Shown here piece after piece: positions 46,880 through 59,183 of a stretch of 64,000 nt of DNA. The position numbers were made by a program, and so were the translations under genes. Below the pieces are notes generated by a model. The model saw only the letters and a list, made by a program, of their open reading frames with translations, searched no databases and had not been told where the DNA came from. The stretch covers positions 749,696-813,695 of the forward strand of contig NZ_JAHXRI010000006.1 in the NCBI RefSeq assembly GCF_019923725.1, read 5' to 3'. Each line of letters opens with the position of its first letter. Within the stretch, counting starts at the first letter, position 1. The DNA is from Zwartia hollandica (GTDB lineage: Bacteria; Pseudomonadota; Gammaproteobacteria; Burkholderiales; Burkholderiaceae_B).

Positions 46880-47000
46880 GCGTTTGCCGTTGCCTCGAGT
46901 GAAAAATGGTGAATGGTATTGTCGCACGCAGGTGGGCGCACTGACCATAGCAGTTACAAAGTCTCACGACTGAGCGATAGGTACGTGCGCTGAGCAGCCA

Positions 47001-47029
47001 TAAAAAAACCGTCCGGCGAACCGGACGGT
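47001..47029 (-). terminator. Rho-independent terminator of the histone gene
   Basis: Read on the minus strand: ACCGTCCGG, loop TTCG, CCGGACGGT, then a seven-T run (the A-run at 47002-47008 on plus). A perfect nine-base GC-rich stem. It lies 28 bases after the TGA of the frame-shifted histone reading frame (47058), which supports that longer frame as the real gene end. Confidence 0.92.
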
Positions 47030-47057
47030 CGGATACTGCAAAACCTTAGCTAAGCGC

Positions 47058-47494
47058 TCAGGGACGGCCGCCCGTAGGAAAGGGCCAAGACGCTGCTGGA
47101 TTCAGGGCAGTTTTTGCACCTGGAGCTGCAGCGGTCGAGGGGGCAGCGGCTGCCGGCTTCTTAGCAGCAGGCTTCTTAACTATTTTTTTTTTGCAACAGG
47201 CTTCTTAGCAGCTTTTTTGGCAGCAGGCTTCTTGGCCGCTGCTTTCTTAGCTACTTTCTTAGCTGCTGGCTTCTTAGCAGCTGCCTTTTTTGCTACTTTT
47301 TTAGCGGCTGGCTTCTTAGCTGCAACTTTTTTCGCTGCTGGCTTCTTGGCTGCTGCTTTCTTAACAACTTTCTTCGCTACTTTCTTAGCTGCTGGCTTCT
47401 TAGCAACTACTTTCTTAGCGACTTTCTTAGCTGCAGGTTTCTTAGCTGCGGCTTTCTTTACTGCTTTTTTTGCTGCTTTTTTGGCTGTTGCCAT
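47058..47494 (-). CDS. H1-like histone, frame broken at an A10 run
   Basis: A nucleoid protein like the C-terminal tail of eukaryotic H1 and Bordetella BpH1: nearly pure Lys, Ala, Pro and Val in units such as KKPAAKKVAKK. It would bind DNA by charge. ATG 47494 has a good GGAGT upstream. As sequenced, the frame stops at TAG (47180-47182) after 104 residues, directly after ten A on the coding strand (47183-47192). One extra A would continue as IVKKPAAKKPAAAAPSTA and on to a TNLP-free tail ending WPFPTGGRP and TGA at 47058-47060, 145 residues in all. The extension keeps the same composition and ends before the terminator, so the gene probably includes it. Sequencing error, phase variation or slippage are all possible. 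Confidence 0.85.
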
Positions 47495-47643
47495 GGTAAT
47501 ACTCCTTAGTTCAGGGTCCCAAACATTAAAACCCGTGCTCGACTAGCCCCACCATGAGACGTCGTTTCGCCCGAGTTATTCATCGGCACAAGCCTCTACT
47601 AAACTGCAGTAGCACAGCGGTTTGCGCTAATGAATCCGGCACA

Positions 47644-47691
47644 GCCATTTGAACTGCCTCTCACTAAGAGGCGCGAAGCAATTCAAATGGC
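47644..47691. repeat. Two-tier hairpin between nrdB and the histone gene
   Basis: Outer arms GCCATTTGAA (47644-47653) and TTCAAATGGC (47682-47691) pair over ten bases; inside them GCCTCT and AGAGGC (47656-47661, 47667-47672) form a second stem with loop CACTA. The same fold exists on either strand. It lies 68-116 bases past the nrdB stop and upstream of the histone gene. Confidence 0.6.
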
Positions 47692-47699
47692 ACCAGCAC

Positions 47700-47717
47700 G
47701 GCGGCTTTTTGGCCGCC
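47700..47717. terminator. GC-rich hairpin downstream of nrdB
   Basis: GGCGGC and GCCGCC flank the loop TTTTTG. It is 42 bases past the nrdB stop on the minus strand. No T-run follows, so termination is uncertain; together with the two-tier hairpin next to it, it may protect or end the nrdAB message. Confidence 0.4.
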
Positions 47718-47759
47718 CACTGGCAAGTACTAAAGCGTAACAAGGCTCAAAAAGACGAA

Positions 47760-48944
47760 TTATTCCCAGTTAAGGGCGCCGCCAGTTTGATACTCAATCA
47801 CGCGTGTTTCAAAGAAATTGCGTTCCTTCTTTAAATCAATCATTTCTGCCATCCAAGGAAAGGGATTCTCTTCCTGGGCAAACAGAGGCTCAATTCCAAT
47901 CTGTTGGCATCTGCGGTTTGCAATAAAACGCAGATAAGACTTGAACATTGGCGCGTTCAGACCCAGCACGCCGCGAGGCATGGTGTCTTCAGCGTAAGCG
48001 TATTCCAAGTCAACCGCTTTGGCGAACAGACCGCGGATTTCTTCGCGGAAGGCGGGCGTCCAAAGTTGTGGATTTTCGAGCTTAATCGTGTTGATCAGAT
48101 CAATACCGAAATTGCAGTGCATGGACTCATCGCGCAGGATGTACATGTACTGCTCGGCGGCACCTGTCATCTTGTTTTGGCGACCAAGTGCCAGAATTTG
48201 CGTAAAGCCAACATAGAAGAACAGGCCTTCCATCAGGCAAGCAAACACAATGAGTGACTTCAAAAGTGTTTGATCCGCTTCGAGCGTGCCCGTTTTGAAG
48301 TGGGGATCGGCGATTGCGTCAATAAAGGGGATCAGAAACTGATCTTTCGCGCGAATCGACGGAACTTCGTTATAGGCGTTGAAAATCTCAGATTCGTCCA
48401 AATCCAAGCTTTCAACAATATATTGGTAAGCGTGGGTGTGGATCGCTTCTTCAAAAGCTTGGCGTAACAAAAACTGGCGGCATTCAGGCGCTGTGATGTG
48501 GCGATACGTGCCCAGAACGATATTGTTTGCGGCGAGTGAGTCGGCCGTAACAAAAAAGCCGAGGTTACGCTTAATGATGCGTCGCTCGTCTTCGGTTAAG
48601 CCCGTGGGGTTCTTCCACAAGGCAATATCGCGAGACATATTGATTTCTTGCGGCATCCAGTGGTTGGCGCAAGTTGCGATATATTTTTCCCAAGCCCACT
48701 TGTACTTGAAAGGTACCAGTTGGTTCACGTCTGTCTGGCCGTTGATGATTCGCTTGTCCGCGACATTTACGCGGGTAGCAGAATCAACAGCTTGAGGTTT
48801 TTGCGTTAAACCAGGGGTAGGTAAGGCAGAGTCTCCAAAAACACCAGTGGCGGGGCGTGCCGGCATCGAGGCCGGCATCGGTGCGCCACCGGCGGCAAGT
48901 GGCGCCGCGGTTTGTGGAGAGGGTTCGTCGTTCCAGGTCAGCAT
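47760..48944 (-). CDS. nrdB: Ribonucleotide reductase class Ia, beta subunit
   Basis: NrdB holds the di-iron centre and tyrosyl radical that start ribonucleotide reduction. 394 residues; the iron/radical cluster is seen in [11 protein letters not shown] (Asp), [16 protein letters not shown] (Glu, His, radical Tyr) and [12 protein letters not shown]. The C-terminal tail that binds NrdA is acidic and aromatic (near GGALNWE). The first 50 residues are Pro/Ala-rich and variable. The start is 18 bases after the nrdA stop; both are one operon. Confidence 0.95.
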
Positions 48945-59153: not shown

Positions 59154-59183
59154 CGGGCCGCGCAAGCGGCCTGTTTTTTTTTT
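59154..59183 (+). terminator. Rho-independent terminator of rplM-rpsI
   Basis: GGCCGC and GCGGCC with the stable tetraloop GCAA, followed by a ten-T run (59174-59183). Ends the ribosomal-protein transcript ahead of argC. Confidence 0.93.

Follow-up and report, generated by a model that had tools for sequence, protein, structure and literature searches.

An H1-like histone gene split at a conserved A10 tract in a Burkholderiales genome: a candidate case of recoding by polymerase slippage

The window, that is the whole stretch of 64,000 nt from Zwartia hollandica that was analysed, carries on its minus strand a gene for an H1-like protein, which starts at an ATG (47494) and is interrupted by a stop codon directly 3' of a run of A. 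The locus comprises, in the direction of transcription:

47760..48944, minus strand: nrdB (small subunit of ribonucleotide reductase); conserved gene upstream, from which the species tree was built
47492..47756, minus strand: predicted structured leader RNA in the nrdB-histone spacer; the aligned stretch, ATG included, with no overlapping Rfam match
47502..47507, minus strand: AAGGAG, resembling a ribosome-binding site, 7 nt 5' of the ATG; invariant in the leader alignment
47180..47494, minus strand: short zero-frame open reading frame of 104 aa; Lys/Ala/Pro-rich H1-like body ending AKKK-stop, with the TAG at 47180-47182
47183..47192, minus strand: candidate A10 slip tract, GCA AAA AAA AAA, including the heptamer A AAA AAA immediately 5' of the TAG
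47058..47183, minus strand: tail in the -1 frame (equivalent to one added A); 41 codons from ATA plus TGA, ending SWPFPTGGRP
47007..47030, minus strand: terminator-like hairpin of 10 pairs with a TTCG loop and a T run, 3' of the tail stop

The name nrdB for the upstream neighbour (47760..48944) is a provisional assignment. On the coding strand the A run is exactly ten long (47183-47192), as a preliminary description of this DNA had it (GCA and nine more A running into TAG 47180-47182), and the reading lengths of 104 residues (zero frame) and 145 residues (joined) given there agree with the open reading frames. One extra A, or a -1 shift at the tract, leads into IVKKPAAKKPAAAAPSTAAAPGAKTALNPAASWPFPTGGRP, which ends at the TGA at 47058-47060. 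The frame is thus restored as had been proposed, but the tail adds 41 residues to the 104 and not 40, the earlier count having begun at V. The terminator-like hairpin (47030-47007) begins 27-28 nt past this TGA, where a terminator 28 bases on had been noted. A pattern search of the 3.22-Mb genome returned 18 overlapping A9 matches on both strands, corresponding to 15 runs of at least nine A, three of which are A10. One of the three A10 runs is the T10 of a terminator-like site (59174-59183), and a further one (G000:C1:384786-384795) lies within a 96-codon stop-to-stop frame.

The gene is predicted to encode a single DNA-binding protein, histone H1-like and belonging to the NCBIfam family NF038053. 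The joined 145-aa form scores 87.6 against a cut-off of 80, while the body alone (29.4 bits, model positions 46-156) and the tail alone (43.8 bits, model positions 155-195) both fall below it. Pfam HC2 (PF07382) gives the same picture, with 70.4 for the joined form against a cut-off of 40, and with 32.9 for the body and 27.1 for the tail, neither passing. NF038053 (hist_H1_lk_Burk)/HC2 is the closest known family, and relatives from other genera share the WPFPTG tail and the position downstream of nrdB; the gene differs in that the tail is out of frame in most genomes of the window's genus, whereas outside it, among the matches listed, the open frames are long. We take the Bordetella-type H1-like proteins to be members of NF038053/HC2 as well.

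To follow the split within the window's genus, nrdB was searched in 60 relatives and the window's own genome and the downstream DNA was read at the 30 loci returned. The tail was searched in 32 genomes of the genus (own included), of which 29 were positive; four of these have contigs that start after the tract, leaving 25 readable genomes. Each species is represented by one genome, and the rows are related species, so that counts and p-values are not independent and p is indicative only. A10 followed by TAG is common to 20 of the 25 readable genomes. In two more (G013 and G016), also split, the run is A9 and GTAG comes next, and the remaining three are in frame with a long tract kept (A10 in G002 and G023, A9 in G026). 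In all 25, a homopolymer of at least nine A (A9 or A10) lies at the frame junction. Short forms are 72 to 128 residues long (18 of the 20 A10 genomes, those with a start found), and the tract is constant throughout. Among the A10-TAG genomes the median nrdB DNA identity is 0.81 and the minimum 0.775 (17 genomes with usable nrdB). Given how few long A runs the genome has, and given the conservation between species, a split at A10 goes beyond chance.

In the nrdB tree (30 rows) the in-frame G023 is sister to G007/G003 and the in-frame G002 is sister to the split G016, both well supported, and the three in-frame relatives are placed among split species, with a weakly supported genus backbone. We read the positions of G023 and G002 as suggesting that the frame flipped more than once while the tract was retained. 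A single G-to-A change in A9-GTAG yields A10-TAG directly and is silent in the short form, which makes it a plausible path between the two split states.

Across the 20 A10 genomes the tail is open to the same stop, with a pN/pS of 0.085. Variation is found in 38 of its 42 codons (stop counted), 12 of them with an amino-acid change, so that the sequence 3' of the stop is under purifying selection and not under the relaxed selection of a pseudogene. Invariant in the same genomes are the ten A's and the first two tail codons (ATA GTT). Of the 38 tail codons compared (3-41, minus Trp), 35 vary at the wobble base, whereas none of the four in the tract does (Fisher p 0.0003, on rows that are not independent). 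This contrast points to constraint at the nucleotide level and does not choose between shifting machines, since three of the four tract wobbles lie within the ribosomal heptamer. An independent start for the tail was considered and rejected: ahead of the tail motif, 19 of the 22 split genomes have no ATG, GTG or TTG in the tail frame, and each of the other three has a single internal GTG. With start codons missing in these 19, a change of frame is the simplest access to the tail. At the level of genome comparison three things are shown: the split is real, selection acts on the tail as a predicted protein read in its frame, and the tract is constrained.

Across the family, which we would guess to be Alcaligenaceae, the tail is present in 198 of 268 genomes. 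Among the family matches listed, short open frames are characteristic of the window's genus. The exceptions in other genera, again among the matches listed, are G124 (80) and G255 (106), both near contig ends, and G128 (118), the frame of G124 running to the end of the available DNA. A run of A9 near the tail was found in 31 of the 268 family genomes. The 25 readable members of the window's genus are among them; the others are three genomes of g51, which are in frame, and three of g64. In g64, a small-genome genus and the third with a split gene, an A tract interrupts the frame of G274 and G279, the stop of G274 coming after a second, A7, run; G277 has an A10 and an intact frame. When genomes of the order were sampled, seven of 399 showed the pattern, these being the window's own and all six sampled members of g73, and a sample of the class gave one match in 274, the window's genome only.

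The second genus, g73, also has small genomes and is presumably Polynucleobacter-like, which is a guess on our part. Of 151 sampled genomes 139 have the tail, and two of the 139 were dropped as they had no match to the tail regular expression. A short tail frame together with a run of at least eight was present in 116 sequences; three failed the criterion of GTAA and phase, so that GTAA follows the run and the gene is split in 113 of the 139 tail-bearing genomes, including single-contig ones (e.g. G297, G600 and G649). The split tracts are A9 in 105, A8 after T in five, A8 in another phase in two (G750 and G777) and A10 in one. Where the start could be traced (107 genomes) the stop lies immediately 3' of the tract in 105 and four bases further on in two. 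Another 21 genomes are in frame or cut. Ten of them retain 9 to 11 consecutive A and the other 11 have no run of eight; each group includes one genome cut at a contig end. The in-frame genomes without a run of eight show that the tract can be lost while the frame stays intact, and imply that the short form is not needed everywhere. For the tail of g73, pN/pS is 0.22 (41 genomes, commonest tail length).

The spacer between nrdB and the histone gene is predicted to form a strongly conserved, structured RNA with covarying pairs, to which the Rfam searches described below gave no match. The alignment covers 265 nt up to the ATG in 26 of the 86 loci with a start found (21 of the genus and five of other genera). 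RNAalifold gave -48.95 kcal/mol, whereas 60 shuffles of the gap-free columns averaged -10.2 (z -15). The consensus has 58 pairs, and 98.3% of the cells pair, the structure being derived from the same rows; 11 pairs are changed on both sides, a number reached in none of 500 shuffles, whose mean is 6.3. A search of 46900-47800 against Rfam at E≤1 returned three matches, none over the leader and each scoring far short of its gathering threshold, and the leader at six loci gave none at E≤0.5. Of 58 loci chosen for a search with a covariance model built from the alignment, 49 gave a match at E≤1 (E-values rough) and nine gave none. Seven matches reach 180-219 bits, five of which (L031, L032, L037, L038 and L040) are in the model and match by construction; the remaining ones score at most 44 bits, many of them partial, and come from Oxalobacteraceae, Burkholderia, Paraburkholderia and g73. 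No description of this leader RNA was found in the open-access literature searched.

Taken as a comparison of genomes, the data make it very probable that conserved recoding of some kind operates at this gene, and for the window's genus we lean towards RNA-polymerase slippage as the main route. The majority of transcripts would then be read to the TAG and give the tail-less 104-residue protein; at A10 the polymerase would slip, leaving some transcripts with one extra A, and these A11 transcripts would be read through the TAG to give the 145-residue protein with its conserved SWPFPTGGRP tail. That the polymerase is the shifting machine, that there is a given ratio of products and that both are used is what we infer. 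The short and long forms may differ in DNA binding, as the preliminary description had guessed. A run of nine A is reported to suffice for efficient slippage by bacterial polymerase in vivo, and slippage has been described at runs of nine A or T (PMC5009743). The polymerase is favoured here by tracts of A9 or A10 in 25 of the 25 readable genomes of the genus, where a ribosomal heptamer needs seven, by the fact that no conserved stimulator was found, and by the three in-frame relatives, which lie among split species and keep the long tract. The run is extended beyond the heptamer by the third base of the codon preceding KKK, and this wobble base is A in all 22 split genes; before the other Lys pairs the codon ends in A in 107 of 387 cases (20 gene bodies; related genes, not independent). 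Other A runs in the body are no longer than seven (20 split genes with the start traced).

The main alternative to polymerase slippage is a programmed -1 shift of the ribosome on A AAA AAA or A AAA AAG abutting the stop, as in E. coli dnaX, where the heptamer acts together with stimulators (a Shine-Dalgarno element and a hairpin). For the window's genus we regard it as unlikely, and it is a serious rival all the same, especially in g73. Heptamer and adjoining stop are present in all 22 split genes of the genus (A AAA AAA in 20, A AAA AAG in two), so the slippery zero-frame heptamer is there, but conserved stimulators were not found in the genus: AGG occurs within 25 nt upstream in three of 20, and structure downstream of the tract in the A10 genomes is not in excess (mean z -0.22 for 16 unique sequences, control region -0.30). 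RNAalifold on the 20 A10 genomes, identical rows merged, likewise gave no signal downstream of the tract (z -0.35); upstream a z of -4.35 corresponds to a mere -0.8 kcal/mol and was disregarded. Individual genomes are exceptions: G013 (L028/L140) has a 12-bp hairpin about 11 nt past the A run of its A9-GTAG tract (z -2.83, the lowest of 25 folded) and G016 an AGG about 10 nt 5' of the tract; the structure of G018 is the second lowest of the 25 (z -2.20, codon-shuffle control). Against a ribosomal shift stand the A run, longer than the heptamer in 25 of 25 readable genomes, and the in-phase A AAA AAA or A AAA AAG found elsewhere in 16 of 20 bodies, where shifts would be unproductive. In g73, five of the 113 split genes have A8 after T only and yet keep A AAA AAG TAA, and these A8 members suggest that the ribosome may do the work there. 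Downstream of the g73 tract the mean z is -1.08 (42 unique sequences, 62% below -1), compared with -0.08 for the control region (codon-resampled controls), although RNAalifold did not find a consensus structure in the ungapped downstream region; the two genes of this genus that are split in a different phase (G750 and G777) were counted against our main explanation. Of the 41 tRNAs found in the genome of the window only one is a tRNA-Lys (anticodon TTT), and in E. coli a single tRNA-Lys likewise makes the site shift-prone (PMC5009743). Ribosome sliding on poly(A) is reported as robust at A11 in an E. coli cell-free system (PMC4363877), which would place A10 at the borderline for sliding. Different orthologues of the gene may take one route or the other, as is noted for dnaX in PMC3711429.

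The preliminary description had named slippage, phase variation and error side by side; of these, genome comparison speaks for slippage and leaves phase variation and error improbable. Replicative phase variation, in which changes in tract length would turn the tail on and off between cells, draws on the single tract base that separates the frame states of some species, but exactly ten A are present in all 20 A10-TAG genomes across deep divergence, where drift would mix lengths, and between species the split tracts are A10 in 20 of 22 and A9 in two; we hold this reading to be very improbable. Less credible still is a sequencing or assembly error or a decaying pseudogene: homopolymers are error-prone and each species has a single assembly, but the split recurs at this site in 20 members of the genus and in 113 g73 genomes, single-contig ones among them, an error shared by 20 genomes of different species is not credible, and the tail is under purifying selection. 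A neutral ratchet concerns function and is compatible with the other explanations. According to it a one-base indel in an in-frame ancestor with a long tract was tolerated since slippage restored some full-length protein; the tract would now be locked in and the short form would have no role. In-frame relatives with A9 or A10 are known in both genera, 11 in-frame g73 genomes (one cut at a contig end) have no run of at least eight near the tail, and the in-frame G002 and split G016 are sisters, all of which suit a ratchet. The three in-frame members of the genus and ten of g73 (one cut at a contig end) that keep 9 to 11 A do not, nor do split sites in three genera, and we consider the ratchet possible, if rather doubtful.

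Polymerase slippage at this tract would resemble that in Thermus thermophilus dnaX (PMC5009743), with a nine-base homopolymer, stops in the other frames and two products per gene; in Thermus the template frame encodes the long form, whereas here it encodes the short one. With E. coli dnaX the gene shares the A-rich lysine heptamer; a single tRNA-Lys and two predicted C-terminal forms are also common to both (PMC5009743). The differences are that no conserved upstream Shine-Dalgarno element or downstream hairpin was found in the A10 genomes and that the shift would here lengthen the protein. Pseudomonas AlgP (PMC9239181) has a similar Lys/Pro/Ala-rich, H1-like DNA-binding C-terminal region, preceded by an additional N-terminal domain, and the word 'frameshift' is absent from the main text of that paper. 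In the searched open-access literature no description of recoding in this gene family was found, and the word 'histone' is absent from the main text of PMC3711429 (GeneTack).

If the polymerase reading is right, the gene would represent a conserved recoding event in a bacterial nucleoid protein that is undescribed within the open-access literature searched. Reading the zero frame alone has the consequence that the gene is called short and its conserved tail missed. As a tentative extension, the slip site may hold tail-less and tailed H1-like protein at a constant ratio in several Burkholderiales lineages, under a structured leader to which the Rfam searches gave no match; the gene would then encode a bacterial chromatin protein with an isoform balance fixed by recoding. 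The slip sites of the two genera differ, being A10-TAG without excess structure in the window's genus and A9-G-TAA with more downstream structure in g73; together with the in-frame members they offer natural contrasts for the replacement of polymerase by ribosome slippage or the reverse, and for the role of the conserved tail.

Two minor features touch the histone repeats. An open frame of 109 aa lies antisense to them (window 47217-47546, plus strand) and is probably a mirror of the Lys/Ala codons. Elsewhere in the genome, G000:C2:728262-728451 and G000:C22:592849-592951 have 74% and 78% DNA identity, respectively, to parts of the same repeats.
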